Assembly: GCA_024637215.1 (NCBI GenBank)
Contig: JAGXFM010000025.1
Coordinates: forward strand, 1 to 35,200
Origin: Sulfuricurvum sp.
GTDB taxonomy: Bacteria; Campylobacterota; Campylobacteria; Campylobacterales; Sulfurimonadaceae
DNA: 35,200 bases
Reading direction: 5' to 3'
Position numbers and translations under genes: made by a program. Of the stretch, positions 3,865 to 34,285 are shown piece after piece (the stretch's first letter is position 1; every line of letters starts with the position of its first letter). The notes under the pieces are model-generated. The model was not told the DNA's origin, did no database searches, and saw nothing but the letters and a program-made list of their open reading frames with translations.

Positions 3865-4500
3865 ATGCAATTGGGTTTCTTGGTAGACCTTCGCCTTTGC
3901 ATGGGGTGTAAGGGCTGTGAGATCGCCTGTAAAGTGGAAAACGAAGTTCCGCTTAGTACATGGCGTCTACGTGTCAAATATGTTGATGTGGGAACATTCC
4001 CGGAGACGAAACGGACCTTTACACCGCTTCGTTGTAATCATTGTGCAAATGCACCATGTGAACGTATTTGTCCGGTAAGTGCATTGCACTATCTTGAGAA
4101 CGGTATCGTTAATATTGATAAAGAACGCTGTATCGGCTGTGCCGGTTGTGTTATGGCCTGTCCCTACGGTGCGATTTACATTGACCCACAAACCCAAACG
4201 GCGGATAAATGTACCTATTGTGCTCACCGCGTTGCGAGTGCGATGATGCCATCATGTGTTGTTGCGTGTCCGGTCGAAGCGAATATCTTTGGCGATTTGG
4301 ATGATCCGATGTCGAACATCAGTAAATATATCCAATCTCACCAAGGTAACGTCCAAGTTCGTAAACCGGAAAAAGGGACATTCCCTCATCATTATTACGT
4401 CGGTGGCGGTAATGTAACGTTGAATCCTCTCGCATCTTTCCGCGGTGAGGGACACAACCTCTTCAACAAACTTACTCATCTCCCAATAGGAGGGCACTAA
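3865..4500 (+). CDS. Four-cluster 4Fe-4S ferredoxin subunit of a CISM molybdoenzyme (PsrB/TtrB/NrfC type)
   Basis: The electron-transfer subunit that links the catalytic molybdoenzyme and the membrane anchor encoded downstream. It has 211 residues and 16 cysteines in four ferredoxin-type groups: C12/15/18/22, C57/60/65/69, C89/92/95/99 and C116/119/131/135. This is the pattern of PsrB, DmsB and NrfC proteins and predicts four [4Fe-4S] clusters. There is no signal peptide, so if the complex is periplasmic it must travel with the Tat signal of the catalytic subunit. Shine-Dalgarno AAGGAGA sits 4 nt before the ATG. The gene overlaps the next by one base (TAATG). The order B-C-A is the same as in ttrBCA operons, although the proteins are not clearly tetrathionate reductase subunits. 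Confidence 0.93.
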   Translation: MQLGFLVDLRLCMGCKGCEIACKVENEVPLSTWRLRVKYVDVGTFPETKRTFTPLRCNHCANAPCERICPVSALHYLENGIVNIDKERCIGCAGCVMACPYGAIYIDPQTQTADKCTYCAHRVASAMMPSCVVACPVEANIFGDLDDPMSNISKYIQSHQGNVQVRKPEKGTFPHHYYVGGGNVTLNPLASFRGEGHNLFNKLTHLPIGGH

Positions 4501-5399
4501 TGGTACACGAAACAATAGCGGCAACCAATGCGGTTGTAACTCTTGACGTTGCTCTTCCGGGAATCGTATGGGGTTGGATTATTACGATGAATATGTGGGC
4601 AAAAAGTATCGGTACCGGTATTATTTTCCTCGGCTTTTTCTTATTGAAAAAATACCCTGAGCAAACCGGATTTATCCGTTTTCCGATTGTAGCGATTTCG
4701 ATTGTCTTTATCCATATTTTCTTATTTTTTACAGTCATCGATTTGCATCAAATGTTCCGTTTCTGGCACATTTTCTTCTATCCTCATTTGACATCGGCGA
4801 TTACGATCGGTGCGTGGATGGCGACAGGTTTCGTAGGATTGCTGTTTGGTATGGCGTACGCGATCTATATGAAAAAAGATGAAGCACTGTATGACAAACT
4901 TCTCGGGTGGACCGTACTTCTTGCCGTTCCGGTTACATTGTATACCGCAGGGCTTATGGCACAATCGACGGCACGTGAATTGTGGCAAATGCCGACAGAA
5001 TCAGCACAAATGATTTTAGCCGCGTTATTAGCCGGTACTTCTGCCATGATTTTGCTAGGGGGAAATAAATTCTCAGATCTCATCAAAAGAGATCTTGCGA
5101 TTATTTTGGGCCTGAGTGCGGCGGCAGCGTTTATCCTTTATATGGCGGAGTTGATCTTTGGGTCAATGAAAGCTGAAGAAGTGGCGGCAGTGTTGCATTA
5201 TGTCAAAGGCGGCGAGTACACCGTTATGTTCTGGATCGGTCAGGTTATGGCATTCATCGTTCCGATGATTTTTGTATGCTTGAGCATTAAAAACCAATCG
5301 TATTATTTACTGAAAATTGCTGCAGTAACAGCATTGATCGGTTTGTGGGTAACTAAACATGTATGGTTAGTTATTCCTCAACTGTTACCAATGAGCTAA
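4500..5399 (+). CDS. NrfD/PsrC-type membrane subunit of the molybdoenzyme
   Basis: A 299-residue integral membrane protein expected to anchor the complex and exchange electrons with menaquinone. I count eight hydrophobic segments at roughly residues 28-50, 60-80, 98-122, 134-153, 168-187, 197-219, 240-262 and 267-289, as in PsrC. No heme-ligand pattern is obvious, which fits NrfD-type subunits. Translation starts at ATG 4500, sharing the last base of the preceding TAA, with AGGAGG just upstream. The catalytic subunit starts 12 bp downstream. Direction of electron flow (reductase or dehydrogenase) cannot be told from the sequence. Confidence 0.9.
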   Translation: MVHETIAATNAVVTLDVALPGIVWGWIITMNMWAKSIGTGIIFLGFFLLKKYPEQTGFIRFPIVAISIVFIHIFLFFTVIDLHQMFRFWHIFFYPHLTSAITIGAWMATGFVGLLFGMAYAIYMKKDEALYDKLLGWTVLLAVPVTLYTAGLMAQSTARELWQMPTESAQMILAALLAGTSAMILLGGNKFSDLIKRDLAIILGLSAAAAFILYMAELIFGSMKAEEVAAVLHYVKGGEYTVMFWIGQVMAFIVPMIFVCLSIKNQSYYLLKIAAVTALIGLWVTKHVWLVIPQLLPMS

Positions 5400-5411
5400 A
5401 GAGGATTAATT

Positions 5412-8400
5412 ATGATGTATTTAGAAAGTAGAAGAACATTTTTAAAAGGGACCGCGCTCACCGTAGCGGGTGCCGCTATCGCAAAGGGAGTATTTTCAAC
5501 AGATGCTGCCGCTGAATCAGTCAAAGCGAGCAAATTTACCAATACACCCGATAGCCTCTCATTCTATCCTCCTCAAGATCAGTGGAACAGTTTCCAAGAG
5601 CTAGACGGTGTAGACTGGAAGCGCGGCGGTATTGATCGTCACGGGGTACAAAGTGAAGAGAATCCTGAGGGTATCTATGTCAATGACTATATGATCGTTC
5701 CGACGGCATGTTCGAACTGTGAAGCCTCATGTGGTTTGACGGCGTGGATCGATAAAAAGACCTTTACCGTTAAAAAATACATGGGTAATCCTCTTCATCC
5801 TGCATCACGCGGTCGTAACTGTGCGAAAGGGTATGCGGTTCAATCGCAAATGTACGATCCGGATCGTATCCCATTCCCACTCAAACGTGCTCCGGGTTCA
5901 AAACGGGGTGAGGGTAAATGGATCCGTACGACGTGGGATGAGGCGATGTCTACCATCGGTAAAAAAATGGCCGATACCATCCGTAAAGGTGATGACCTTT
6001 CTAAGAAGTCAGTGATGTATCATGTCGGTCGCCCGAACGAGAATGGTTTTGTTCCTCAAATCTGGGAAACATTGGGTCTTGATTCGTACAATTCGCATAC
6101 CAACATCTGTTCGTCAAACGGGCGTACTCCGACGATTTGGACAGCAAATGATGACCGTACTAGTCCAGACTGGGCAAATGCTAAGCTCATTTTCTTAAAC
6201 TCTTCGCATGCCGCGGATGCGGGACACTACTTTCAACAATCGGCAAGTTTTATCGCAGACGCTCGTAAAAAAGGGGCTAAGCTTGTCGTTATGGACCCTC
6301 GTATGTCAAACTCTGCGGGGATGTCCGATCTTTGGATTGCGGCATGGCCGGGGACAGAAGCGGCAATTTACCTCTATTTGGCCAACCGTATTCTCAGTGA
6401 AAATATGACGGACAAAAAGTTTGTGAAAAAATGGTTCAACTGGGAAACCTTGATGAACGATTCTGAACATTTGAATTTTATGTTCGAAAAAGGGCAAATA
6501 AACAAACTCCCGGTAGACCGTAGCTTTGAGAGCTATATGGAACTCCTAAAAGATATGTATGCCCCTTATACGCTTGATTATGCGGTCAAAGAGACCCATG
6601 TTCCGGCGTATAAACTCGAAAAATTGTATGAAATGTTTATTTGGGCAGGCGATGCAATCTCTACCTATATCTGGCGTGCAGCGGCTGCGGGTAACCGTGG
6701 TGCATGGATGGGCGGACGTGCGGCCTATTTCTGTATCGGTCTTCGCGGAGCTATCGGAACAGAGGGGGGAACATTCTTCCACCACTGGCATGTTATCTCC
6801 GTTTCGGGTAAAGGGGGAAGCTCAACCGTCGGTCAAGGGATCGCCGGTGCCGATGTACCGAAAGTAAAAGTATGGAACGAGCTTACATGGCCACCGGAGT
6901 GGCCGTTATCAACGTATGAACTCTCCTATTTACTACCGCATCTTTTAAGTGATAAAGAGTGGCAGAAAAAATGGAATGATAGAGGATTAAACGTACCGAG
7001 TAAACTCGCGGTTTGGATTCCGCGTATGTATAATCCGGTATGGATCAATCCGGATGGATTCCGTTGGCTGGAAGTGTTGAAAAACGAAGAGATCATGGAA
7101 CTCACTATGAATCTCTCTCCGGTGTGGTCAGAGACCAATTGGTACATGGACTACGTTCTCCCTGTTGGACTAGCGGGTGAGCGACATGACCAACACTCAG
7201 AAGCAACAATGCCGGCACGTTGGACAAGCTTCCGTCAACCGGTATTGCGTGTAGCGTTGGAAAAATCGGGTTGGAAAGCGAAAAATCCTGCCCGTGCAAC
7301 TCTTGAAGCTCATATCAAAGCCGGTTTGGGTGAAGTATGGGAAGAGAATGAGTTCTGGTTTGATTTGTGTGTTAATTACATTGATGCGGACGGGTCTCTC
7401 GGTATCAAGAAAATGTGGGAATCCAAACGTCATCCGGGTAAACCGGTTACCATCGCAGAGTGGTACGATGCGGCGTTTGGTGATAACTTGCCGAAGCTCA
7501 AAGAGACGGCAACCAATGATCCACGTTACATGAACGAAGAGTTTCCGGTTTATTCGTATCTTCGTGATTACGGTGTGTGGATGGAAGAGGATAAAATCTT
7601 TAATGCACAAGAGCGTGAACTCAAATTTGAAGAGGGCGAAGTTATTTCTCATGGACATAAGTTTGCTGCTTCAACGATGAGTATCGGTGCAGGCGGTGTT
7701 ATTTCTGCACAAGATCATCACGGTAAAGAGAAAAAAATCGGTATTGAAATCGACGGTAAGAAAATGGAAGGATTTGCAACTCTAACTAAAAAGTTAGAGT
7801 TCTATACTCAGTGGGCTACCGATTGGCATTGGAGAGAGTATGCTATGCCGTTTTATCCGCGTAATGATGAGGAGAAAAACCAATACATTCATTTGGTCTC
7901 TCACGTCAACCATAAATACATGACGGAAGAGAATGCATTTGCGCTCAATACGGTATTCCGTTTGCCGTACAACATTCACACCCGTTCGGCGAACTCGAAA
8001 CATCTCATGGAGATCAGCCAAAACCATGACCCGATCTGGATTTCGACTAAAGATGCACAGCGTCTCGGGTTCAAGCGTGGTGATGCGATCCGTGTTCGTA
8101 TCGTGGATACCGTTTCAGGACTTGAGGGAGGTCATTTTGTTGCGATGGCGGTTCCGACTGAGGGTGTACTTCCTGGAACACTCGCATGTTCGCACCATGG
8201 CGGACGCTGGAAACTGACCAATGCGGTTACGATCCCTAACGGGGTGAGTGATGGTAAAGTCGCACCGGGCGTAGCACCGCGTGATCTTAATAATAAAGAG
8301 TTCTTAGCAGAATCTCCGGCGAATGTCGGTAAAGCGGGCGGTCAAAGTATTATTGACGATTACGAAGGTACTACGGGGCTTAACAGTTTCGGTGTTCCGG

Positions 8401-8804
8401 TTGCCGAGATCCAAATGGACGGTAAAGTCGGTAAACTCAAATACGTCGAGGGGATCAAACCTTTCCATACAGAACGTTTTGCCGAATATAATCGTGACTC
8501 TGGCAATATTTGGTGGGATGGACTCTCCGGTTCATGGCAAAATGCCGTTGCGGCTCCACATCCTGACCCAGTTTCGGGTATGCACTGCTGGCATCATAAA
8601 GTTCTACTAGAGCCGGCACAAGCGGGTGATAAAATCGGAGATATTTTCGTAAACTACGACAATAACTTCAAAGTGTATCAAGCATGGAGAGATACATTGA
8701 CTCGTGGATTGGATTCCAATTCAACACTTCGACGTCCTCGTCACATCAAACGCCCATGGGTTAATCTTGATCCGTCGGTTTATGAAGTCAGTATCAAGTC
8801 ATAA
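5412..8804 (+). CDS. Tat-exported molybdopterin oxidoreductase catalytic subunit (DMSO reductase superfamily)
   Basis: A 1130-residue catalytic subunit carrying a bis-molybdopterin guanine dinucleotide cofactor and one [4Fe-4S] cluster. The N-terminus has an exact twin-arginine motif SRRTFLK (6-12), a hydrophobic stretch and an Ala-rich cleavage region, so it acts in the periplasm. The cluster cysteines are C100, C103, C107 and C137 (C-X2-C-X3-C-X29-C). C233 in SHTNICSSNGRT is a candidate molybdenum ligand. The late segment with WYMDYVLPVGLAGERHDQ is typical of the superfamily. It is much longer than PsrA/PhsA (about 760 residues) and somewhat longer than TtrA. The substrate is unresolved: sulfur species (polysulfide, tetrathionate, sulfite) are the best guesses in this kind of organism. 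Cytoplasmic SoeA is argued against by the Tat signal. Confidence 0.9.
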   Translation: MMYLESRRTFLKGTALTVAGAAIAKGVFSTDAAAESVKASKFTNTPDSLSFYPPQDQWNSFQELDGVDWKRGGIDRHGVQSEENPEGIYVNDYMIVPTACSNCEASCGLTAWIDKKTFTVKKYMGNPLHPASRGRNCAKGYAVQSQMYDPDRIPFPLKRAPGSKRGEGKWIRTTWDEAMSTIGKKMADTIRKGDDLSKKSVMYHVGRPNENGFVPQIWETLGLDSYNSHTNICSSNGRTPTIWTANDDRTSPDWANAKLIFLNSSHAADAGHYFQQSASFIADARKKGAKLVVMDPRMSNSAGMSDLWIAAWPGTEAAIYLYLANRILSENMTDKKFVKKWFNWETLMNDSEHLNFMFEKGQINKLPVDRSFESYMELLKDMYAPYTLDYAVKETHVPAYKLEKLYEMFIWAGDAISTYIWRAAAAGNRGAWMGGRAAYFCIGLRGAIGTEGGTFFHHWHVISVSGKGGSSTVGQGIAGADVPKVKVWNELTWPPEWPLSTYELSYLLPHLLSDKEWQKKWNDRGLNVPSKLAVWIPRMYNPVWINPDGFRWLEVLKNEEIMELTMNLSPVWSETNWYMDYVLPVGLAGERHDQHSEATMPARWTSFRQPVLRVALEKSGWKAKNPARATLEAHIKAGLGEVWEENEFWFDLCVNYIDADGSLGIKKMWESKRHPGKPVTIAEWYDAAFGDNLPKLKETATNDPRYMNEEFPVYSYLRDYGVWMEEDKIFNAQERELKFEEGEVISHGHKFAASTMSIGAGGVISAQDHHGKEKKIGIEIDGKKMEGFATLTKKLEFYTQWATDWHWREYAMPFYPRNDEEKNQYIHLVSHVNHKYMTEENAFALNTVFRLPYNIHTRSANSKHLMEISQNHDPIWISTKDAQRLGFKRGDAIRVRIVDTVSGLEGGHFVAMAVPTEGVLPGTLACSHHGGRWKLTNAVTIPNGVSDGKVAPGVAPRDLNNKEFLAESPANVGKAGGQSIIDDYEGTTGLNSFGVPVAEIQMDGKVGKLKYVEGIKPFHTERFAEYNRDSGNIWWDGLSGSWQNAVAAPHPDPVSGMHCWHHKVLLEPAQAGDKIGDIFVNYDNNFKVYQAWRDTLTRGLDSNSTLRRPRHIKRPWVNLDPSVYEVSIKS

Positions 8805-8814
8805 GACTTGATAC
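8791..8814 (+). repeat. Perfect 10-bp hairpin spanning the stop codon of the catalytic subunit
   Basis: GTATCAAGTC and GACTTGATAC pair perfectly around an ATAA loop that contains the TAA stop (8802-8804). A pyrimidine-rich but not T-run sequence follows. It may stabilise the upstream mRNA, act as a partial terminator before the accessory genes, or bind a protein. Confidence 0.5.
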
Positions 8815-8891
8815 CCCTTCTAATCTCCCTCCCTTATGCGCTTTTTAGCCGCTTAAGTTACAATCACGCTACTTTATTAAAGGTTTTATGA

Positions 8892-9509
8892 ATGGACGAA
8901 ATTATCGCACGCAGTAATTTATATGCGTTGTTATCACGAATATTACTCCAAGAACTGGATGTTGAACGTTTGGAGATTCTTCGTAACGATGAAACAGTTT
9001 TAGAATTTATGCCCCATTGGCGTGACTGGGAACCTCGTCGTGAGACTGAAGCTCAAAAACTATTGGAAGAGTATTTGAACCCTGACTTTACCAACCTCTC
9101 ATTGCTTCATTTAGTACCGTATGAGACGTTTTATACCCGTAGCGATCAAATGATCGAAACGGGCGGAGCGAATCCGGTCACCGATATCTATAGCGCCTAT
9201 GATTTTCTAGTGGATTATGAGGTCGCACGCGTCGTATCTGCAGACCATATCGGTATTGAGATGGAGTTTATGCATCACTTATGTGAAGCACAGCTTAAAG
9301 CCATGGAGGAGAGTGACCAAGAAGCGGTTCAAGAGTTGATTCGTGTGCAACATCAGTTTTTGAATACTCATTTGCTTCGCTGGGCACCTATGTATCTCAT
9401 CAACATGAAATATGAGTCTCGCACTCCGCTCTATTACGACAGCGCAGAGATGGCTTTAGAGTTTATCCTCTCTGATAATGAAACATTGAGTGCTCTGGTT
9501 CAAGCGTGA
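8892..9509 (+). CDS. TorD/DmsD/NarJ-family molybdoenzyme chaperone
   Basis: A 205-residue all-helical cytoplasmic chaperone expected to bind the Tat signal peptide and/or apo-form of the catalytic subunit encoded 87 bp upstream and to control cofactor loading before export. Family features are the YETFYTRSD segment (about 77-85), the conserved DHIGIEMEFMHHL (about 118-130) and FLNTHLLRWAPMYL (about 156-169). Length is typical. The ATG at 8892 is preferred over the out-of-phase ATG at 8888; AAAGG lies 8 nt upstream. It overlaps the next gene by 4 bp (GTGA), so translation of the two is probably coupled. Confidence 0.88.
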   Translation: MDEIIARSNLYALLSRILLQELDVERLEILRNDETVLEFMPHWRDWEPRRETEAQKLLEEYLNPDFTNLSLLHLVPYETFYTRSDQMIETGGANPVTDIYSAYDFLVDYEVARVVSADHIGIEMEFMHHLCEAQLKAMEESDQEAVQELIRVQHQFLNTHLLRWAPMYLINMKYESRTPLYYDSAEMALEFILSDNETLSALVQA

Positions 9510-10603
9510 GTCTACTAGAGCTATCACCCGCACAATGCGTCCGCGCTTTGAGTGTCAACTCACTCTGCTCGCTATGTGCAGATGTTTGTCCTACGAATGC
9601 CATTGCGCTAGGCGGACGTCTCCCCTCGATCAATCAATCACTTTGCGTTGGATGTTCGGGGTGTGTGGCGGTATGTCCGAGTGAAGCATTAGTATTGGAT
9701 GATTTTAATCCGACGGAGTTTTTCTTTAGCTTCGCCTCAGAAGAGGGGAATTTGGTTTCGTGCCAAAAGAATGTTCCCTGTATCACTGCTCTCTCATGTG
9801 AGCATTTAATCTCGTTGTGTAGCCTTAAAAAAGGGTTGGTTCTCGATATCGGGCATTGCAGCAGTTGCGACATCGGTCACAAAGTGCTAGCGGTGATGGA
9901 AGAGAGAGTTCAGAGTGCAAATTATCTCCTCGAAGCGATAGAAGTTGAGAGCAGTGTCATGCGTGAAGAGAGAGCTTACAGTAGCCCTGAGGCGGATGAG
10001 CCTAAGGATCGGAGAGATTTTTTTAAAACGTTCCATTTGCGTGGGATTGCAAAAGCCAAGCACAATTTTGAAAAAGAGGTACAAAGCACGACCGATGAGT
10101 TTATTGAAGCGAGTATTGATAGCTCTCACACCCAAGAGCTGCGTACGAAAAAAATCACCAATCGGCGGAAACTTTTTTTTACAGCACTAAAAAGGGTAGA
10201 AAAGCCAGCCCAGTTTCACGTCGTAGATGCTCAGATGATTGCTTTTACCTCTCAAAAGATTATGGATGAGACTAAATGCACGGCGTGTCAGATGTGCTAT
10301 CGTATTTGCCCTACGGCGGCACTCACCTCTGATATGCGCAATTCGAAGATTGATTTTGACCCGTTTCTATGTGTCAAATGTCATTTGTGTCATGATGTAT
10401 GTGAAAGTAATGCAATCAGTGTTTCAACCTCCTATAATCTTACGGAGTGGTTTGAGCCGAAAGTGCAAAATCTCATCACCTTTCTTGTCCGTCGATGTGA
10501 TGAGTGTGACGCTCTTTTTAGCTCGGTTGGGGGTGAAAAGATTTGCCGCCGCTGTCAACTTGAAGAGGAAGAAGCTCTGGAATTATGGGGATTAAATAAA
10601 TGA
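9506..10603 (+). CDS. Multi-cluster 4Fe-4S protein with C-terminal zinc-ribbon-like tail
   Basis: A 365-residue protein with 26 cysteines; I cannot assign it to a named enzyme. The N-terminal half has two ferredoxin groups (C11/21/24/28 with a stretched first spacing, and C47/50/53/57) and then six scattered Cys (86, 92, 98, 105, 118, 121). A charged linker follows with DRRDFFKTF (168-176) and NRRKLFFTAL (219-228), both resembling twin-arginine motifs though far from the N-terminus. Two canonical groups come next (C258/261/264/268 and C289/292/295/299), then C331-X2-C334-X12-C347-X2-C350 like a zinc ribbon. The start is GTG, overlapping the chaperone stop. Up to four [4Fe-4S] clusters are predicted. 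Context suggests an electron-transfer or maturation role for the molybdoenzyme. Confidence 0.85.
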   Translation: MSLLELSPAQCVRALSVNSLCSLCADVCPTNAIALGGRLPSINQSLCVGCSGCVAVCPSEALVLDDFNPTEFFFSFASEEGNLVSCQKNVPCITALSCEHLISLCSLKKGLVLDIGHCSSCDIGHKVLAVMEERVQSANYLLEAIEVESSVMREERAYSSPEADEPKDRRDFFKTFHLRGIAKAKHNFEKEVQSTTDEFIEASIDSSHTQELRTKKITNRRKLFFTALKRVEKPAQFHVVDAQMIAFTSQKIMDETKCTACQMCYRICPTAALTSDMRNSKIDFDPFLCVKCHLCHDVCESNAISVSTSYNLTEWFEPKVQNLITFLVRRCDECDALFSSVGGEKICRRCQLEEEEALELWGLNK

Positions 10604-11037
10604 TGAATAACGATAATACAATAACATCTGAGACAAAGCTGTACGGATATATTGCCGAAAATGCCCATAGCAGTCGCTTTTCGCTCACACTGAATAAGCT
10701 TTATAAAGAGAACGGGCGTGACGCGATGATGATCCCGATGAATATCCGAGTCGATGATGTCGCCTTTACGATATCTCAAATGCGTAGTTCCAAGCTCAGT
10801 GGTGCCATTATCGGGAGTGAGTATCAAGAAGAGGCGTTCTCTTTGGTGGATGAAGCATCTGAAATAGCACAAGAGAACGGCTATTGCGACTCTATTATGA
10901 TACGAGAGGGAAAATTGATCGGGGATTTGATTATGACGAGAGCATTAGAACGCTATGCGGATCGAGACGATTTTGTGGATGATATCGCAATGCGCGCACA
11001 GTGTCACTATTTTTACGATTTAACTACAGGAGAATAA
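10600..11037 (+). CDS. Orphan AroE substrate-binding-domain-like protein, catalytic residues absent
   Basis: A 145-residue protein that aligns by eye with the N-terminal substrate domain of shikimate dehydrogenase: KLYGYIAENAHSSRFS (13-28) with the family's Y-x-[IV]-x-x-x-x-x-HS region, GAIIGSEYQEEAF (68-80) against GANVTVPFKEEAF, and REGKLIGD (102-109) against the LxxGDNTDG strand. The catalytic Lys is Gln76 and the catalytic Asp of GDNTD is Met112. The NADP-binding Rossmann domain is missing altogether. It is therefore not an active dehydrogenase; it may have become a binding or scaffold protein. It overlaps the upstream Fe-S gene by 4 bp (ATGA) and the next gene follows by 1 bp, so it belongs to the molybdoenzyme accessory block. 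Confidence 0.72.
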   Translation: MMNNDNTITSETKLYGYIAENAHSSRFSLTLNKLYKENGRDAMMIPMNIRVDDVAFTISQMRSSKLSGAIIGSEYQEEAFSLVDEASEIAQENGYCDSIMIREGKLIGDLIMTRALERYADRDDFVDDIAMRAQCHYFYDLTTGE

Positions 11038-13997: not shown

Positions 13998-15188
13998 TTA
14001 GTTGAGAGAGGTCGTTTGATAAAGGCGCATTAATGCGACATAAAAATCTTTTTCGGTGTGCTCTTCGAGAAGACCGTTAACGGGCATAATATCGTAATAG
14101 AGTTTGGCCAAATTTTTAAATCGGTTAGGATAAAGGGATGCGACGATCATCGACGATATCTCTTTACGAACTAAAACGGCCGGAGGTAAAAGCCCTTGTC
14201 TCATTAACTCAAGAATTGATTCGGAATGGTATGAGATATGGTGATGATGACCATGCGGGCAGGTTTGGACACTGACGAGTGTTTTGCATTGATTACAATA
14301 GACGTATTCGCTTGCAATTCCCACTTCGATCTCGATCCCGACGAGGCGGTCAATAATCGATTTATTGGCGTTATGGTCGTAGTACATGCCGATTCCGGCA
14401 TGGTTTTGACCGATCATAAGACGGTTACACCCATAGTTTTTGGCCACAATGGCGTCTAAAATAACTTCATTACTTCCGGCAAAAATATAGCTACTCTCGA
14501 GAGGAATTATGACGACGCGATTACGAGGAAGATAGTTCTCGACGAAAAATTTCAGGGTCTCAAAGCGGAGATCATATTTCAAATCGGCATTATTGTATGG
14601 CTTGAGGAGGAAAATAACAATCAGATCGGTGCGCTCTAGGCTTTGTCGAATAAGGCGCTCATGGGCACGATGGAGCGGGTTTGCCGCCATAAATAATGCT
14701 GTGATATGTTCGGCTCCGATTTGCTCTTTTGCCTGATTGACCATCTCCTGAAGGGATTGGACACTGGAAAGATCGATGGAGTATTCCCCACAAATGGCAT
14801 ATTTTCCCAATCGTTTATGGGTTGCATTGACTCCTGGATGGGATAAATCTTCAGTCCCATAAATTTGGTGCAACCGTTCTCGAGGGTCGATGGGATAGAC
14901 TTCGTCAACACAAAGCTCTCCGACAACGAGGTTATCACAAATCAGATCAAGAATTTCCCCTTTTGTTGTTGAGGTGAGGATCGTTTCATTGACTTTTCCG
15001 CTGGGAGAGAGGATAAGGGGAAAGGGGAATGTTTTACCGAGAAACATGCCACTGCTTAGAACTTCTTTGCTCTGAGCTTCATTCATAAGGGCTGTTACGG
15101 GACTGAGCATACCTGCTTTGAGTAAAGTGAGGGCGGATACGGCCTCTTGGTCAATATAGAGGGCTCTATTTTTTCTTGACAATGCCAT
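13998..15188 (-). CDS. ATP-sulfurylase-like protein (sulfate adenylyltransferase family) with altered active-site motifs
   Basis: A 396-residue protein with the complete Sat architecture: PUA-like N-terminal domain (about 1-155), nucleotidyltransferase domain (about 160-310) and zinc site C298/C301/C310 with nearby His in YCNQCK and CPHGHHHH. ATP sulfurylase interconverts sulfate plus ATP with APS, and oxidises APS during sulfur oxidation. Here the hallmark QTRNPxHRAH reads FMAANPLHRAH (166-176), GRDHAG reads GQNHAG (260-265), AGPREA reads AGSNEV and LSGTKVREML reads YHSESILELM. The two HxxH histidines remain, but residues that bind sulfate and phosphates are changed. Either a divergent Sat or a relative with another substrate. 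The ATG lies inside the upstream regulator gene (23-bp overlap); the conserved N-terminus needs this start. Confidence 0.8.
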   Translation of the reverse strand: MALSRKNRALYIDQEAVSALTLLKAGMLSPVTALMNEAQSKEVLSSGMFLGKTFPFPLILSPSGKVNETILTSTTKGEILDLICDNLVVGELCVDEVYPIDPRERLHQIYGTEDLSHPGVNATHKRLGKYAICGEYSIDLSSVQSLQEMVNQAKEQIGAEHITALFMAANPLHRAHERLIRQSLERTDLIVIFLLKPYNNADLKYDLRFETLKFFVENYLPRNRVVIIPLESSYIFAGSNEVILDAIVAKNYGCNRLMIGQNHAGIGMYYDHNANKSIIDRLVGIEIEVGIASEYVYCNQCKTLVSVQTCPHGHHHHISYHSESILELMRQGLLPPAVLVRKEISSMIVASLYPNRFKNLAKLYYDIMPVNGLLEEHTEKDFYVALMRLYQTTSLN

Positions 15189-16053
15189 ATTTCTTTCTCT
15201 TTTCCCATAAACTTTTGCGTGAAATTCCCAGTTTTTTCGAGAGTTCTGTATCCGGGTATCGGTTTTGAAAATGGATCATAATGTATTTCACATACTCTTC
15301 GATCGGTAAAATCTCTCCTTGATCAAAAAGATGGTTTTCACTTTCGATTTCGATCAGTTTGAAAGGGGGATTATCGATCGGATCACTGCTGGCGACGATA
15401 CACTCTTTTCCTGCAATTAGTTCATAAAAGGCTTTATGCTCACTTTTTTTGAGGTTTTGAAAATCGGTGATAAACAAGATCACATCGTCATTCGGTGCTG
15501 CAATATCGCTAAATGCTTTGGCGGAAGAGAGTGAGATGAATTGGAGTGTTTTATCATGATGTGCCGCATAACGAAAGGCAAACGCATCGGCATATTTTTG
15601 GTATCCGCTGCAAATAAAGAGGGGAAGTTCGGTTTTATCCAAATCTTCGTCTACATTAATCGAGTTAAAGGTGTGGGTGAGATAACGCTCATACGTTTGG
15701 TTTTGACGGCGAAGACGTTCATGATTTTGGAAGTGTTGAATTTTTCGGATGAGTTCTTCAATCATAAAAGGTTTGAGAATGTAATCTTTGGCCCCCGCTG
15801 CGAGAGGTTTGGATACGGTATCGTTGCTCACATAGCTGACCATCAAAATAACGACGGCATTTTTATACGCTTCGATGACAGGATAGATATCTTGACCGCT
15901 GATATTGGTCGAGAGGAGGACAACATCATACGGAGTTCCGCGAAGCCCTTCTTTGGTTGAACTGGAAATATCACAGTTGTGGCTTAAATCGCTTAGTTTA
16001 GAAGCGATACTTTGAGCAAGATAGATCTCGTTTTCGATAATGAGTATATTCAT
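15166..16053 (-). CDS. Degenerate NtrC-type response regulator (receiver without phospho-acceptor, Fis-type HTH)
   Basis: A 295-residue regulator. The N-terminal receiver fold (about 1-115) keeps the late lysine (K94 in ILKPF), but the phospho-acceptor Asp is Ser48 in VVLLSTNIS and the acidic pair is Glu7-Asn8, so ordinary phosphorylation is unlikely. The middle (about 140-250) looks like a shrunken AAA+ region without a Walker A motif. The C-terminus LGISRKSLWEKRKKYGI is a classic Fis-type helix-turn-helix of NtrC proteins. The ATG at 16053 is preferred over the in-frame TTG at 16065 because it overlaps the ispDF stop as ATGA. The protein may bind DNA constitutively or sense by another route; the overlapping ATP-sulfurylase-like gene downstream could be its partner. 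Confidence 0.82.
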   Translation of the reverse strand: MNILIIENEIYLAQSIASKLSDLSHNCDISSSTKEGLRGTPYDVVLLSTNISGQDIYPVIEAYKNAVVILMVSYVSNDTVSKPLAAGAKDYILKPFMIEELIRKIQHFQNHERLRRQNQTYERYLTHTFNSINVDEDLDKTELPLFICSGYQKYADAFAFRYAAHHDKTLQFISLSSAKAFSDIAAPNDDVILFITDFQNLKKSEHKAFYELIAGKECIVASSDPIDNPPFKLIEIESENHLFDQGEILPIEEYVKYIMIHFQNRYPDTELSKKLGISRKSLWEKRKKYGIVKKK

Positions 16054-17171
16054 CCGTTTTTCCAATCAAAATAGTGTACTGATGCGGTTGCAATCACGCC
16101 GATACCTTCCTTACGTCCGATAAATCCAAGATGCTCAGTGGTGGTCGCTTTGACATTGAGCCGTGCAGGGGGGATATGGAGCAATGAAGCTAGAGTAGAG
16201 CGCATTTGCTCTTTATAGGGGGCCATTTTCGGTGCTTGAGCAATGATGGTGATATCCGCGTGCAAAATGACAAATCCGAAATGATGGAGCTTTTCGACAC
16301 AGCGTGCTAAAAGATCCTTTGAATCAATATTTTTATAGGCAGTGTCGGTATCGGGGAACAGCATCCCGATATCTCCCAAACAAGCAGCTCCAAGTAAGGC
16401 GTCGATGAGAGCATGGATCGCAACGTCTCCGTCACTGTGAGCTTTAAACCCGAAAGGAGATTCTATATTGATTCCGCCGAGAACCATCGGCTTAGCCTCT
16501 TCAAAAGGGTGAACGTCAAATCCATTACCGGTAAACACTACAGAAGAGGGAGAGGAAAGACATTCGATAGATGCGGTATCGGCAGTATGCGTTATTTTTG
16601 CGGCACGCGGATCACCGAGGACAAAGTGGCGTGTACCTCCGGAGGCGACAACGGCGCTGCTCTCATCGGTAAATTCCACATCCGTTTCCAAAGCACGGCG
16701 TAATACGTCGGTACGGGAGAGTTGCGGGGTTTGAATCCGCTTGACTTTCTCACGCTCTATCGTTTGATCACCGTACACAACCGTGTCATGAACATCGAGT
16801 GCGGGAACAATGGTATCCGCAACCCCTTTATGCTCTAACAGTCTAGCGATGAGGTCGGGATCAATACAGGCACGAGCGATATCGCTTACCATGACATAAG
16901 GAGTTTTAACTTCGTTGAGCGCATTTTTAAGTGATTGTTGGCGGGTCTCTCCCCCTGCAACAATAGTAAAATCACACATAGAACGGATAAAAGGGATCTC
17001 ATCCGGATGGGCAGAGAGGATAATGGAAGCTTCGGGGAGTGATTCTTTGATACGGTTAGTAACATAAAGCCAGAGAGGATCATGGCCAATACGGAGCCAT
17101 TGTTTTTTTACAGGTACTTTAAAACGGGTAGAGTTACCTGCGGCAAGCAAAACAAGGGTTAAATCAGACAA
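16050..17171 (-). CDS. ispDF: Bifunctional IspD/IspF (MEP pathway of isoprenoid synthesis)
   Basis: The IspD half makes CDP-methylerythritol from MEP and CTP; the IspF half makes MEcPP from CDP-ME 2-phosphate. The IspD nucleotide-binding segment LLAAGNSTRF is at residues 8-17 and VMVSDIARACID near 93-104. The IspF domain starts near residue 213 with GNGFDVHPF (metal ligands D219, H221) and continues with KAHSDGDVAIHALIDALLGA and ATTTEHLGFIGRKEG. Fusion of the two is usual in Campylobacterota. I start at TTG 17171: AGGA lies 6 nt upstream and a TATAAT box lies just before it (17202-17207), which rules out the longer GTG start at 17210. The length is then 373 residues. Confidence 0.95.
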   Translation of the reverse strand: MSDLTLVLLAAGNSTRFKVPVKKQWLRIGHDPLWLYVTNRIKESLPEASIILSAHPDEIPFIRSMCDFTIVAGGETRQQSLKNALNEVKTPYVMVSDIARACIDPDLIARLLEHKGVADTIVPALDVHDTVVYGDQTIEREKVKRIQTPQLSRTDVLRRALETDVEFTDESSAVVASGGTRHFVLGDPRAAKITHTADTASIECLSSPSSVVFTGNGFDVHPFEEAKPMVLGGINIESPFGFKAHSDGDVAIHALIDALLGAACLGDIGMLFPDTDTAYKNIDSKDLLARCVEKLHHFGFVILHADITIIAQAPKMAPYKEQMRSTLASLLHIPPARLNVKATTTEHLGFIGRKEGIGVIATASVHYFDWKNG

Positions 17172-17201
17172 AATGTATCCTATTTTGTAAACTGTTACGA
17201 A

Positions 17202-17207
17202 ATTATA
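17202..17207 (-). promoter_or_regulatory. -10 box of the ispDF operon promoter
   Basis: TATAAT on the minus strand places a transcript start near 17195, about 24 nt before the TTG start of ispDF. No good -35 is visible; the upstream region is A/T-tract rich. Confidence 0.55.
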
Positions 17208-17245
17208 CACTTAAAAAGCTTTTTTTTATCTTGTTTGCGATAAAT

Positions 17246-29297: not shown

Positions 29298-29867
29298 ATG
29301 ATTTTAATGATTGATAACTATGACAGTTTTACCTACAACATTGTTCAGTATTGTTTGGAACTTGGGGCTGATTTGAAAATTATCCGTAACGATGAACTCA
29401 CGGTCGAAGAGATCGAAGCGTTGCATCCCGAAAAAATCATCATCTCTCCGGGCCCTGCAACCCCTGATGATGCGGGAGTGACACTCGATGTAATTCGTCA
29501 TTTCGCCGATAAAGTACCTATTTTAGGAATTTGCTTGGGACATCAAAGCATCGCACAGGCGTTTGGTGCTAATGTGGTACGCGCCAATCGGATGATGCAC
29601 GGGAAAACGTCTAAAATGATTCGTTCGGGAGATACCCCTATTTTTAATAAATTACCGGAGATGTTTACCGCTACACGTTATCACTCATTGATTGTTGAGC
29701 AGGAAAATCTCCCCGATGTGATTATTCCGACGGCGTATAGTGAAGATGACCATGAAATTATGGCATTAGAGATCAAAGATAAACCTATCTACGGTGTTCA
29801 ATTTCACCCAGAATCGATTATGAGTGAATTCGGACATGAGATACTGAACAACTTTTTGAAACTATGA
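29298..29867 (+). CDS. trpG: Anthranilate/aminodeoxychorismate synthase glutamine amidotransferase subunit
   Basis: A class I glutamine amidotransferase of 189 residues that supplies ammonia to TrpE or PabB. The catalytic triad is visible: Cys79 in GICLGHQ, His170 and Glu172 in QFHPES. The N-terminal MILMIDNYDSFTYN and ISPGPATPDDAG (49-60) are characteristic of TrpG/PabA. Which partner it serves cannot be decided from the sequence, and a single protein may serve both. No trpE, trpD or pabB is adjacent; the gene sits between mqnE and a membrane protein, overlapping the latter by 4 bp (ATGA). Confidence 0.92.
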   Translation: MILMIDNYDSFTYNIVQYCLELGADLKIIRNDELTVEEIEALHPEKIIISPGPATPDDAGVTLDVIRHFADKVPILGICLGHQSIAQAFGANVVRANRMMHGKTSKMIRSGDTPIFNKLPEMFTATRYHSLIVEQENLPDVIIPTAYSEDDHEIMALEIKDKPIYGVQFHPESIMSEFGHEILNNFLKL

Positions 29868-31048
29868 GAGAAAAAGTTCTTTTTTTAGCACTCTTAGGGG
29901 TTAATTTTTTAGTCCTTGTTTTGCAAATAAAAGGGCTCTCTATCGGGTATCATGAAGCGCAAATTTTATACGGTGAAGTATCCCCTTTACAACTGCTAAT
30001 CTCTTCTTCGCTCCATTTTTTCGGACAAAATGATTATATGCTTAGAGTGCCGATGATTGTACTTCATCTGCTTTCGGTCGTGTTACTTTACGGCATTTCA
30101 AAACATTATGTTTCACGGGAGCATGATCGTTTATGGATCGTTCTCATTTATATCCTTCTCCCCGGTGTCACGAGTGCGGCTTTGATTGTGGATAATGCGG
30201 GATTAGTTATTGCCTCATTATTCCTTTTTGTGTACATTCATCTTAATTTTGGACGCTATGCTTTGGGACTGATCCCTATCCTTGTTGTCATTGATCCTGC
30301 ATTTGCTTATCTTTTCTTTGCAATAGCTCTTTATGGTCTTTACCGAAAAGAGTATCTGTATACTTTATTCGGAGTGGTAGCTTTAATATTTTCTCTCAGC
30401 GTCTATGGGATACATGTCGGGGGATCGCCGGAGAGTCGTTTTTTGGATGCTCTGGGTGTGTATACGGCCATATTTTCACCTATTGTCTTTCTTTATCTTT
30501 TTTATGTTCTGTATCGTCGTATGATTTCCAAGGAGTGGGATCTAATTTGGATGATTGCGATGAGTGCCTTTATGATTTCCTTGTTGCTCTCATTTCGGCA
30601 AAAAGTAGAAATTCAAACCTTCGCCCCCTTTTTACTTTTGGCGTTACCGCTCGCGGCACAAACTTTTTTACACACCTATCGTATTCGCTTACGTGAATTC
30701 CGTGGACGGTACCGCTTCCTTTTTTATACGGCGTTTACCCTTTTAGTCCTCAATGTATTAGCGGTATTTTTTAACCACTATTTTTATCGCTTTTTAAATA
30801 ATCCGACACACCATTTCTCTTATCCGATGCATGTTGCGAAAGAACTTTCGGCAGTGTTACATCATGATAATATCAAATGCATTGATGCAGGAAATGAGAA
30901 ACTTCAATTACGTCTCCGTTTTTACGGAATCACACACTGTGAGGAGTATCGTTTGGAGAATGAGATGGCTCCGAGAAGTAAAAAAGTTACAATAAGTTAC
31001 ATTAAAAAGCCAATTTATGAGATGTATGTTACCAAAGTAAACAAATAA
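29864..31048 (+). CDS. Polytopic membrane protein, GT-C/ArnT-like glycosyltransferase relative
   Basis: A 394-residue protein with about nine or ten hydrophobic segments. The N-terminal layout, with TM1 followed by GYHEAQILYGE (28-38), then LRVPMIVLHLLSVVLLYG, resembles the GT39/ArnT type of polyprenyl-phosphate-sugar glycosyltransferases. The usual first-loop Asp-Glu is His-Glu here. A short periplasmic tail replaces the large C-terminal domain of ArnT or PMT proteins. Activity is therefore uncertain. Translation is coupled to trpG through the ATGA overlap, which is more likely co-transcription than shared function. Envelope or lipid glycosylation is the best guess. Confidence 0.68.
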   Translation: MREKVLFLALLGVNFLVLVLQIKGLSIGYHEAQILYGEVSPLQLLISSSLHFFGQNDYMLRVPMIVLHLLSVVLLYGISKHYVSREHDRLWIVLIYILLPGVTSAALIVDNAGLVIASLFLFVYIHLNFGRYALGLIPILVVIDPAFAYLFFAIALYGLYRKEYLYTLFGVVALIFSLSVYGIHVGGSPESRFLDALGVYTAIFSPIVFLYLFYVLYRRMISKEWDLIWMIAMSAFMISLLLSFRQKVEIQTFAPFLLLALPLAAQTFLHTYRIRLREFRGRYRFLFYTAFTLLVLNVLAVFFNHYFYRFLNNPTHHFSYPMHVAKELSAVLHHDNIKCIDAGNEKLQLRLRFYGITHCEEYRLENEMAPRSKKVTISYIKKPIYEMYVTKVNK

Positions 31049-31140: not shown

Positions 31141-32457
31141 ATGGCTCAAAGAGCGATTCGTGAATACGATGGTAAAGCAATTTTCTCTAAACATTGGGAA
31201 AAATACTTCAGTGGGTTTCATTACGGTTTTAAATCAGTATTGGTAACCAATGGTGATGAATTACGCGCATGTGCGCAAAAACACGGATTTGAGTGGTTAA
31301 AACAAGAAGCTCTTGTAGCAAAGCCGGATATGCTATTCGGTAAACGGGGTAAAAATGATCTTGTATTGTTTAAAACCAATAAACCGGGTGATGTCACTCT
31401 TGAAGAAGCTGCCAAATGGATTGATGAAAAAATTTCTCACGAAACGACGCTTCTCTCCGGTCAACATGGAACATTGACCCATTTTATTGTTGAGCCGTTC
31501 ACTCCGCACTCTCAAGATCAAGAGTACTATATTTCAGCAACGACGGTCGGTGAAGACGATGTACTTTATCTATCGGCTGAGGGCGGTATGGAAGTTGAAG
31601 AGGGATGGGAAGAGAAAGTTAATGAAGTAACGATTCCGATCACGATGGATGATGCAAATATTGCACATTTGATCCGTGCAAACGTTCCTGCAGGAATTCC
31701 GGCGGAAAATAAAGAGCGCTTTATCACTTTTGCTGAGCAATTTTACAAATTCTATCGCGATTTGAACTTCGCTTATCTTGAAATCAATCCAATCGTTATG
31801 ATCGGTAACGATATGCATATTCTTGACCTTGTTGCACGTCTTGATGATACCGCAGGATTTATGATGGGTGAATCATGGTGCGGGGCCGAGTTCCCGACAG
31901 CGTTTGGGATGGAAGATCAATCTCCGGAAGAAAAAGCAATTGCAGAAGCAGACTCGAAATCGGGTGCTTCATTGAAACTTACGATCCTTAATCCGATGGG
32001 GCGCATTTGGACCATGGTTGCAGGTGGCGGTGCATCGGTTGTATATGCCGATACGATTGCAGACCTATCAGGAAATGTAGCCGATCTTGCGAACTACGGT
32101 GAGTATTCGGGCGGACCGACAACGGGTGAAACCAAATTTTATGCGGATACCGTATTGGATTTGATGACACGCCACAAGGATCCGAAAGGGCGCGATAAAA
32201 TCCTTATCATCGGCGGTGCGATTGCCAACTTTACCGATGTCGCAAAAACATTTACCGGAATTATCCAATCGTTTGAAACCTATGCAGATCGTATGAAAGA
32301 GCATAATACACGTATTTATGTACGCCGCGGCGGACCGAACTATGAAAAAGGTCTTAAAGATATTAAAGAAGCAGCAGACCGTTTGGGTCTCTATATCGAA
32401 GTTTATGGGCCAGAAACGCATGTCACTGACATTGTCCGTATGGCTTTAGAGAAATAA
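31141..32457 (+). CDS. aclB: ATP-citrate lyase beta subunit (reductive TCA cycle)
   Basis: With AclA it cleaves citrate to acetyl-CoA and oxaloacetate using ATP and CoA, the key carbon-fixing step of the reductive TCA cycle. The 438-residue protein has an N-terminal ATP-grasp region like succinyl-CoA synthetase beta (KPDMLFGKRGKNDLVLFK, about 61-78; YLEINPIVMIG) and a C-terminal CoA-ligase-type domain (GRIWTMVAGGGASVVYADT; NYGEYSGGPT). The unit of a separate B and A gene, 438 plus about 605 residues, is that of Campylobacterota and Chlorobi, not the fused animal enzyme. AAGGAGT precedes the ATG. aclA follows within 10 bp. Confidence 0.96.
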   Translation: MAQRAIREYDGKAIFSKHWEKYFSGFHYGFKSVLVTNGDELRACAQKHGFEWLKQEALVAKPDMLFGKRGKNDLVLFKTNKPGDVTLEEAAKWIDEKISHETTLLSGQHGTLTHFIVEPFTPHSQDQEYYISATTVGEDDVLYLSAEGGMEVEEGWEEKVNEVTIPITMDDANIAHLIRANVPAGIPAENKERFITFAEQFYKFYRDLNFAYLEINPIVMIGNDMHILDLVARLDDTAGFMMGESWCGAEFPTAFGMEDQSPEEKAIAEADSKSGASLKLTILNPMGRIWTMVAGGGASVVYADTIADLSGNVADLANYGEYSGGPTTGETKFYADTVLDLMTRHKDPKGRDKILIIGGAIANFTDVAKTFTGIIQSFETYADRMKEHNTRIYVRRGGPNYEKGLKDIKEAADRLGLYIEVYGPETHVTDIVRMALEK

Positions 32458-32467
32458 GGAGAGAATG

Positions 32468-34285
32468 ATGGGTGCTTTATTTACAAAAGATACACAAGCA
32501 ATTTTTTGGAACAACAACGCGAGCGCTATCCAACGTATGTTGGATTATGACTATGTTATCAATCGCACAAAACCCTCAGTTGCGGCAATCGTTGCTCCAA
32601 CGTCAGGTAATAAATTTGAGAAATTTTTCTATGGTCCCGATGAGATTATGGTTCCGGTTTTCCGTAACACGACTGAAGCGGCAGCAGCATTTCCTAATGC
32701 AGACGTTCTTTTAAACTTCGGATCATTTCGTACCGCGTATGACGTTACGATGGAAGCGATCACTCTTAAAGGGCAGTTCAAAACCGTCATGGTTACGGCT
32801 GAGGGGATTCCTGAGCGACTTGCTCGTAAAATGAACCAAGCGGCTCGTGATGCGGGTGTTGTTGTGATCGGACCGGCTACGGTCGGCGGTATTGCACCGG
32901 GCGGTTTCAAAATCGCAAATGTCGGCGGAACCATCGAAAATATTATTAACTCTAAATTGCACCGTGCAGGTTCATGTGGACTTGTAACCCGTTCAGGCGG
33001 TTTGTTCAATGAACTTTCCAACATCGTCAGTATCAATGCTGACGGTATCGCTGAGGGTGTTGCAATCGGTGGAGACCGATTTGTCGGATCGGTATTTATC
33101 GATAATCTTCTTCGTATGGAGAGTAACCCTGAAGTTAAATATATGGTTCTTCTCGGCGAAGTAGGGGGGACAGAAGAGTATAAAGTGATCGAAGCAGTAA
33201 AAGCGGGCAAGATCAAAAAGCCGATCATCGCATGGTGTATCGGTACCATCGCTAAACATTTCAGCTCAGGTGTTCAATTCGGTCACGCAGGTGCTTCGGC
33301 AAATGCGGATGCTGAAACAGCTGCAGCTAAAAATACGGCAATGGCAGCGGCAGGTATTCATGTCCCTGCGAGCTTCAACGATCTTCCACACACAATCGCG
33401 GAAGTCTACGGAAAACTTCGCGCAGCAGGTACTATCGGTGAGATTGTTGAACCGGAATTACGTGAAGTACCAAAAGTACGCCGTAAAAAAGAGTTCATTT
33501 GTACGATCTCTGATGACCGTGGTGATGAAGCAACCTACGCAGGTTATCCAATCAGTTCAGTGGCAACACCTGAGACAGGTTTTGGAATCGGTGATGTTAT
33601 TTCACTCCTTTGGTTCAAAAAACGTTACCCGAAATGGGCAACCGATTATCTTGAGACGGTTATCAAAACCGTTGCCGATCACGGTCCTGCCGTTTCAGGT
33701 GCCCACAATGCAAAAGTGACTGCTCGTGCAGGGAAAGACGTTATCAGTTCACTCGTAACGGGACTTTTGACCATCGGACCACGTTTCGGTGGTGCGATTG
33801 ACGATGCGGCACGTTATTTCAAATACGCAAACGACCGTGGTATGTCTCCGGCAGAGTTTATCGATTATATGAAGAAAGAGGGTAAAACCATTTCGGGTAT
33901 CGGTCACCGTATCAAATCGGTTCGTAATCCTGACCTTCGTGTATCGGGATTGAAAAAATATGCGGCAGAGCACTTCCCTGCAACACCATTGCTTGATTTT
34001 GCCCTTGAAGTCGAAAAGTTGACCACGTCGAAAAAAGATAACTTAATCCTGAACGTTGACGGTACTATCGGTATCTTGATGGTCGATATGTGGCGTGCAC
34101 TTGGTTATTCTGAGTCTGATATTGACGGCTTCATCGAAGCAGGTGCTTTGAATGCATTCTTCGTAGTGGGTCGTTCAATCGGATTTATCGGTCACATTTT
34201 GGATGAGAAACGTCTCGGTATGCCGATGTATCGCCATCCGACCGATGATATCCTCTACAACGTCGAACTCGCTGACGAAATTTAA
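32468..34285 (+). CDS. aclA: ATP-citrate lyase alpha subunit (reductive TCA cycle)
   Basis: The subunit that carries the phosphohistidine and the citryl-CoA lyase module. The N-terminal half is like succinyl-CoA synthetase alpha: APTSGNKFEKFF, IGPATVGGIAPGGFKIAN and the active His273 in GVQFGHAGASA. The C-terminal third is citrate-synthase-like: SGAHNAKVTARAGKD, IGPRFGGAIDDAARYF and GIGHRIKSVRNPD. Two ATG codons lie in tandem at 32465 and 32468; the second is chosen because the Shine-Dalgarno AAGGAG (32456-32461) is then 6 nt away, not 3. The length is 605 residues. It is co-transcribed with aclB and followed by a hairpin. Confidence 0.96.
   Translation: MGALFTKDTQAIFWNNNASAIQRMLDYDYVINRTKPSVAAIVAPTSGNKFEKFFYGPDEIMVPVFRNTTEAAAAFPNADVLLNFGSFRTAYDVTMEAITLKGQFKTVMVTAEGIPERLARKMNQAARDAGVVVIGPATVGGIAPGGFKIANVGGTIENIINSKLHRAGSCGLVTRSGGLFNELSNIVSINADGIAEGVAIGGDRFVGSVFIDNLLRMESNPEVKYMVLLGEVGGTEEYKVIEAVKAGKIKKPIIAWCIGTIAKHFSSGVQFGHAGASANADAETAAAKNTAMAAAGIHVPASFNDLPHTIAEVYGKLRAAGTIGEIVEPELREVPKVRRKKEFICTISDDRGDEATYAGYPISSVATPETGFGIGDVISLLWFKKRYPKWATDYLETVIKTVADHGPAVSGAHNAKVTARAGKDVISSLVTGLLTIGPRFGGAIDDAARYFKYANDRGMSPAEFIDYMKKEGKTISGIGHRIKSVRNPDLRVSGLKKYAAEHFPATPLLDFALEVEKLTTSKKDNLILNVDGTIGILMVDMWRALGYSESDIDGFIEAGALNAFFVVGRSIGFIGHILDEKRLGMPMYRHPTDDILYNVELADEI

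Follow-up and report, generated by a model that had tools for sequence, protein, structure and literature searches.

A gene on the minus strand of a 35,200-nucleotide stretch of DNA (hereafter, the window) from an uncultured Sulfuricurvum encodes a relative of ATP sulfurylase (Sat) in which the substrate motifs have been replaced. Does its product still activate sulfate, and if not, what might it do instead? We refer to the gene as satL, for Sat-like, and to its product as SatL. The gene is near-universal in Campylobacterota, has been reported to be essential in Campylobacter jejuni and Campylobacter coli, and is labelled as sulfate-activating, which it is very unlikely to be.

The satL open reading frame starts with ATG and encodes 396 amino acids. 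Pfam recognized PUA_2 (1.3e-15) and ATP-sulfurylase (5.2e-57) domains in the protein. An AlphaFold model built from a 68-member alignment had a mean pLDDT of 88.2 and a pTM of 0.86. The top Foldseek matches of this model were all Sats, the best being the zinc-type enzymes 1v47 (E 1.2e-28, TMt 0.84) and 8a8d. Pfam, AlphaFold, and Foldseek thus all placed the three domains (I, II, and III) of the Sat fold in SatL. The protein nevertheless scored about half of the curated cut-offs of the ATP sulfurylase models, with 144.7 versus 322.95 bits for TIGR00339 and 192.9 versus 387 bits for PRK04149, whereas canonical Sats from Campylobacterota reached or nearly reached them (290-328 and 382-422 bits, respectively). 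The features of the gene and of its product are as follows, all on the minus strand.

13998..15188, minus strand: satL, Sat-like protein with a PUA-like domain I, a nucleotidyltransferase-fold domain II, a zinc domain III, and a new C-terminal tail; Cj1609 orthologue by operon context
14676..14690, minus strand: MAANP, residues 167-171, replacing the QTRNP loop that binds sulfate and the alpha-phosphate; Arg in 0/83 family members
14661..14672, minus strand: HxxH, H173-H176, retained in the window protein; elsewhere in the family the first His has been lost at least four times and the second at least three times
14463..14480, minus strand: AGSNEV, residues 237-242, replacing AGPREA/AGPKEA
14394..14411, minus strand: GQNHAG, residues 260-265, replacing GRDHAG
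14238..14297, minus strand: zinc site C298-C301-C310-H312 and the family-specific H315-H316-H317 (CPHGxHHH), near-invariant (n=83)
14208..14228, minus strand: HSESILE, residues 321-327, replacing the pyrophosphate-binding SGTxxRE
14001..14132, minus strand: C-terminal tail, residues 353-396, family-specific and not found in canonical Sats; two predicted helices, invariant Y383, conserved FY..L..L.QT.SL, last residues of low pLDDT

The original prediction had read these four replacements from the window alone and had noted that both HxxH histidines and the zinc site remain. All of these readings were right, and the same pattern of altered motifs recurs in 83 orthologues. As a reference we used nine canonical Sats, six from Campylobacterota together with 1v47, 8a8d, and 4dnx. 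In the alignment, the Q, T, R, and N of QTRN, the GRD motif, the residues of the GxxKxxD loop, and Ser, Thr, and Arg of SGTxxR were present in all nine. The window protein has all of these changed except the Asn of QTRN and the Asp of GxxKxxD, two residues that are not kept across the satL family, and it has lost R249 too. An apparent insertion of one residue in the QTRN loop of the multiple alignment is not claimed here, since the gap can be moved upstream of the motif. The HHH cluster, Y320, and the tail, which spans about 45 residues in the family, are new and conserved in satL and absent from the canonical Sats compared.

The structure of A. vinosum Sat assigns roles to the lost residues. 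There, the contacts to sulfate come from Gln199, Arg201, and the backbone NH of Ala299; those to the alpha-phosphate from Thr200, the NH of Arg201, and Asn202; and those to the ribose from the NH of Gly295, the O of Arg296, and His298, while Asn202, His205, His208, and Arg365 serve pyrophosphate (PPi) and the transition state (PMC3779200). Combined with the losses in satL, these roles indicate that the side chains binding sulfate, and most of those binding PPi, have been lost, and that the ribose/adenosine side of the site is mostly kept. The prediction had also spoken of two signature arginines that contact sulfate and nucleotide. Both are indeed lost, but only the Arg of QTRNP binds sulfate through its side chain, the Arg of GRD making a backbone contact to ribose. 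The Arg of SGTxxR, in the PPi site, is a third loss. SatL almost certainly does not make APS.

Distribution of the family was examined across the phylum. A PF01747 protein was encoded by 307 of 397 Campylobacterota genomes (~77%), nearly always in a single copy. Genome contigs yielded 515 satL relatives; among the best 80, those named to genus or higher were all Campylobacterota, and three were titled only 'bacterium'. Within the same best 80, the closest relatives of the window protein were 87-94% identical, which places the window in Sulfuricurvum. The window protein itself carries the marks of the family, the CPHGxHHH zinc/His motif and the FY..L..L.QT.SL tail. The gene was missing from tested genomes of genera g19, g31, g32, and g35 (family f2, Helicobacter-type), from g13 of family f6, and from some f7 genera. 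The terms 'Helicobacter-type', 'Sulfurospirillum-like', and 'Campylobacter-type' are our own reading of genome groups, drawn from size, family, and gene content.

An alignment of 83 satL members from 13 GTDB families separated what the family has abandoned from what it maintains. The sulfate-binding Arg of the RNP loop was present in none of the 83 and in 9/9 canonical Sats; the GRD Arg was kept in seven members and the SGTxxR Arg in four. C298, C301, C310, P311, H312, G313, H315, G332, P335, P336, R341, S345, and Y383 were invariant, and H316 and H317 nearly so. Site rates agreed with these counts: against a mean of 1.04, the zinc Cys3His site, HHH, and the FY..L..L.Q tail lay at the floor (0.16), and the lost motifs GxxKxxD and SGTxxR evolved at 1.77 and 1.13. 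By domain, domain III was the slowest (0.64) and domain I the fastest (1.35). HxxH, H263, R174, E177, and R181 likewise ranked with the slowest sites of the whole protein. The tree, however, placed at least four losses of H173, three of H176, and two of H263, always with the zinc site, H315, and Y383 intact; N170 was likewise lost repeatedly with the rest intact. C298, C301, C310, H312, H315, and Y383 were never lost. Because HxxH has been lost in several lineages, the function shared by the family does not need HxxH catalysis. The nucleotide-site histidines being dispensable in this way, the working part common to all members may be domain III, with its zinc, HHH, and tail.

Comparison with Sulfuricurvum relatives gave a dN/dS of 0.02-0.04, with dS near saturation. 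In a tree including the nine canonical Sats, satL was set apart by a long branch (1.49), with low support (0.40) for the rooting split. Strong purifying selection and the 83 orthologues rule out a relic, chance, or sequencing decay as the source of the altered motifs. That satL is a decaying, functionless remnant of a Sat would suit the lost catalytic motifs and the disappearance of the entire gene from several lineages, but is scarcely credible given the dN/dS, the invariant new residues, the retention in ~77% of genomes, the full-length open reading frames, and the reported essentiality.

Sulfate activation was then considered at the level of whole genomes. The original prediction had proposed a search for a second, canonical Sat, and would have counted it as evidence against itself if a strain in need of a Sat had satL as its only one. 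No other Sat was found in the window genome (assembly 84% complete), and a cysK-cysH-cysD-cysN-sulfite reductase cluster lies elsewhere in it (G000:C47). Sulfate is therefore activated by CysDN, which fills the role, so the objection does not apply. Many relatives have neither route. Among 37 genomes tested, 21 near-complete, satL-positive ones lacked CysD/CysH (E 1e-15); two of the 21 carry a separate canonical Sat, leaving about 19 near-complete relatives with satL and without any CysD/CysH or canonical Sat. An APS kinase homologue was present in 3 of 20 satL genomes tested, all three from one genus (Campylobacter-type), and absent from the other 17. A search for AprA gave no match in 20 genomes, and none in control genomes either. 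satL and a canonical Sat occurred together in five Campylobacter-type genomes, and a canonical Sat occurred alone in one Sulfurospirillum-like genome. These results show that satL represents a conserved, constrained, non-canonical Sat-fold family that is not coupled to sulfate assimilation.

The possibility that SatL is a genuine but atypical ATP sulfurylase in sulfur metabolism, for example one with a low rate or one acting on selenate or molybdate, is what databases and a review of Sulfurimonas assume. Its fold and zinc site, the naming of orthologues as sulfate adenyl(yl)transferase in papers, and the APS kinase homologue of the three Campylobacter-type genomes speak for it. We nevertheless consider it very improbable, since SatL no longer has the side chains by which sulfate and PPi are held, the window genome has CysDN, many satL genomes have no CysD/CysH and 17/20 have no APS kinase, and five Campylobacter-type genomes encode a canonical Sat in addition to satL. 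The gene is thus misannotated as ATP sulfurylase in databases and papers: it is related to Sat, works unlike one, and should not carry that name. In the Sulfurimonas review, sulfate assimilation is given as the role of the universal 'Sat-type ATPS' (PMC4584964); judging by our census, that protein is probably SatL, misassigned. Relabelling satL changes reconstructions of sulfur pathways such as the one in that review.

The surroundings of satL offer other leads. The gene lies in an operon with the following additional features.

16050..17210, minus strand: ispDF, bifunctional MEP-pathway enzyme, first gene of the operon
15166..16065, minus strand: cemR, orphan response regulator of the CemR/HP1021/Cj1608 type
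15166..15188, minus strand: cemR/satL overlap of 23 nt, the 3' end of cemR with the start of satL; the satL ATG lies inside Tyr-Gly codons of the CemR helix-turn-helix
13475..13984, minus strand: pgpA, phosphatidylglycerophosphatase A, 13 nt after satL

The order ispDF-cemR-satL-pgpA was kept in most loci examined across the families sampled, with exceptions in f7 and f9. Of 77 loci, 68 had an overlap of exactly 23 nt between the end of cemR and the satL ATG, and 75 kept the same frame. This overlap may reflect translational coupling; its position is partly fixed by CemR itself, since the ATG falls within the C-terminal Tyr-Gly codons of that protein. Scans for promoters and terminators gave counts near those of shuffled sequence. 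In f7 genomes, satL lies outside the cemR operon, divergent beside queH (epoxyqueuosine reductase) and adjoining an endonuclease IV-like gene (L071 5860-8289, L087 5857-8174), and in one f9 genome it lies with pgpA and a polA-like gene. All satL-less genomes tested keep a full-length CemR except G007. The near-complete genome G007 (f6, g13) lacks satL and gave only weak response-regulator matches to CemR, so that both may be missing. Two f5 loci (L064, L065) have an extra gene of ~215 amino acids between satL and pgpA, and the ispDF open reading frame of L067 encodes 620 amino acids rather than the usual 370-390, possibly through an extra domain or a fusion.

Elsewhere in the window, positions 3865-11037 hold a membrane molybdopterin oxidoreductase cluster (Fe-S subunit, NrfD, 1130-amino-acid Mo subunit, TorD-like chaperone, and ferredoxin), after which comes a 145-amino-acid protein with the N-terminal domain of shikimate dehydrogenase only. 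The two ATP-citrate lyase genes (31141-34285) have just upstream of them, at 29864-31048, a gene for a 394-amino-acid protein that matched no Pfam family.

From gene order and the family census we infer that satL is the orthologue of C. jejuni Cj1609. ispDF (Cj1607), Cj1608, and Cj1609 are co-regulated (PMC4435418). Cj1609 was reported to be essential in C. jejuni and C. coli and not in two other species compared (PMC10077673); this essentiality could be due to polarity on pgpA. An aerotolerant derivative of C. coli carried sat A290V as one of several substitutions (PMC5366326 Table 2). If that sat is the satL orthologue, A290V would fit a link to oxygen metabolism, although it is one of many mutations.

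With sulfate activation set aside, the original prediction's choice between a different anion or nucleotide substrate and a regulatory role can be addressed. Its premise, that SatL is not an ordinary ATP sulfurylase, was borne out by the family-wide losses, by CysDN in the genome, and by the persistence of satL without sulfate-assimilation genes; as to the choice itself, the repeated loss of HxxH in lineages that keep the zinc, HHH, and tail elements leans toward a regulator or adaptor. The reading that we favour, tentatively, is that SatL is an old, vertically inherited, neofunctionalised paralogue of ATP sulfurylase, a repurposed (pseudo)enzyme with a regulatory or adaptor role and no sulfate activation. 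The old ATP cleft would still bind a nucleotide or a similar ligand in most lineages, and domain III with its zinc and HHH, together with the tail, the sole part conserved everywhere, would form the working surface. HHH would bind metal, and the conserved, low-pLDDT end of the tail would suit a partner-binding peptide in the model. SatL might then act as a ligand- or metal-responsive regulator or adaptor, made in step with CemR, the orphan redox/energy regulator, through the translationally coupled overlap. Against this stand the slow evolution of HxxH, H263, R174, E177, and R181, which suits catalysis in most lineages too, and the position of satL away from cemR in f7. CemR is also kept in Helicobacter-like and Sulfurospirillum-like genomes that lost satL, and both the overlap, with its position partly set by the conserved CemR C-terminus, and the essentiality, if polar, may have other explanations.

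A real contender is an active nucleotidyltransferase with a changed acceptor, in which ATP or another NTP would still be bound through HxxH/GxxH, the sulfate pocket would have become uncharged or would take another substrate, and HHH with a second metal would replace the arginines. The slow rates of H173, H176, H263, R174, E177, and R181, the fully Sat-like predicted fold, and the reported essentiality of Cj1609 suit an enzyme. So does the position of HHH: in A. vinosum-type numbering the cluster falls between strand 12 and helix 12, in the zinc-bearing segment that leads to this PPi-binding helix, which in the A. vinosum enzyme borders the cleft on its PPi side (PMC3779200). Such an enzyme is difficult to reconcile with the recurrent loss of HxxH, N170, and H263 while the rest stayed intact, and with the loss in most members of both triphosphate-contacting motifs (Asn of RNP and Arg of SGTxxR). 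That Helicobacter-like and Sulfurospirillum-like genomes have lost the gene implies that the reaction is dispensable or replaceable. We know of no unfilled adenylylation step in satL-bearing genomes, which also counts against it. The several losses of HxxH, set against the retention of zinc, HHH, and tail, lead us to prefer a regulator or adaptor to a new adenylyltransferase. It is unlikely that SatL is a structural or RNA-binding protein in which the PUA-like domain I and the zinc ribbon would bind RNA or the ribosome and the nucleotidyltransferase core would be a scaffold. Domain I matches PUA_2, the zinc/HHH region is the most constrained part, and queH, beside which satL lies in f7, is a tRNA-modification gene; yet domain I evolves fastest, PUA_2 is normal in Sats, and only in one family is queH a neighbour of satL.

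Within the favoured regulatory or adaptor reading, a more specific and rather doubtful proposal is that SatL would supply the missing signal input of CemR, as a co-translated, nucleotide- and metal-sensing pseudo-ATP-sulfurylase that would report adenylate/energy or redox state to this master energy regulator of Campylobacterota. Cj1608 is CemR, and its signal perception is unexplained (PMC11334517); this gap and the fixed coupling suggest the link, and the lineages that have kept only one of the two genes weaken it. An obligatory partnership is not supported, as CemR persists without satL. Literature searches on HP1021 with sulfate adenylyltransferase, and on abu0128, returned nothing. What the analysis adds to the original prediction is the age and phylum-wide spread of the family, the conserved operon that it shares with cemR, and the HHH cluster and tail, both new. 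SatL is a phylum-typical protein with a remodelled active site, and its gene has a fixed overlap with that of the energy regulator of the phylum.

Compared with known systems, SatL shares with the zinc-type Sats of Thermus thermophilus (1v47) and Methanothermococcus thermolithotrophicus (8a8d) the whole-chain fold, domain order, Cys3His zinc site, HxxH, and 23-27% identity over nearly the full length. Unlike them, it has the sulfate-binding Gln and Arg, the GRD Arg and Asp, GxxKxxD, AGPREA, and SGTxxR replaced, has gained the HHH cluster and a 45-residue tail, and shows no linkage to sulfur genes. Domain III of the M. thermolithotrophicus enzyme also forms the dimer interface (PMC10322725). 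In keeping its fold while its catalytic motifs eroded and another surface was conserved, SatL resembles, as a general concept, pseudo-enzymes of the nucleotidyltransferase fold; the literature searched yielded no characterised pseudo-enzyme of Sat origin. The reaction annotated for satL is catalysed by the heterodimeric ATP sulfurylase CysDN, which consists of unrelated PP-loop/GTPase proteins encoded at another locus with cysH and sulfite reductase. The closest counterpart is Cj1609 ('sulfate adenyltransferase'), which follows ispDF (Cj1607) and cemR (Cj1608) in the same order; most genomes of its genus type have no other Sat-type gene. The Cj1609 side is more divergent, members of the presumed corresponding genus g15 being 37-38% identical.
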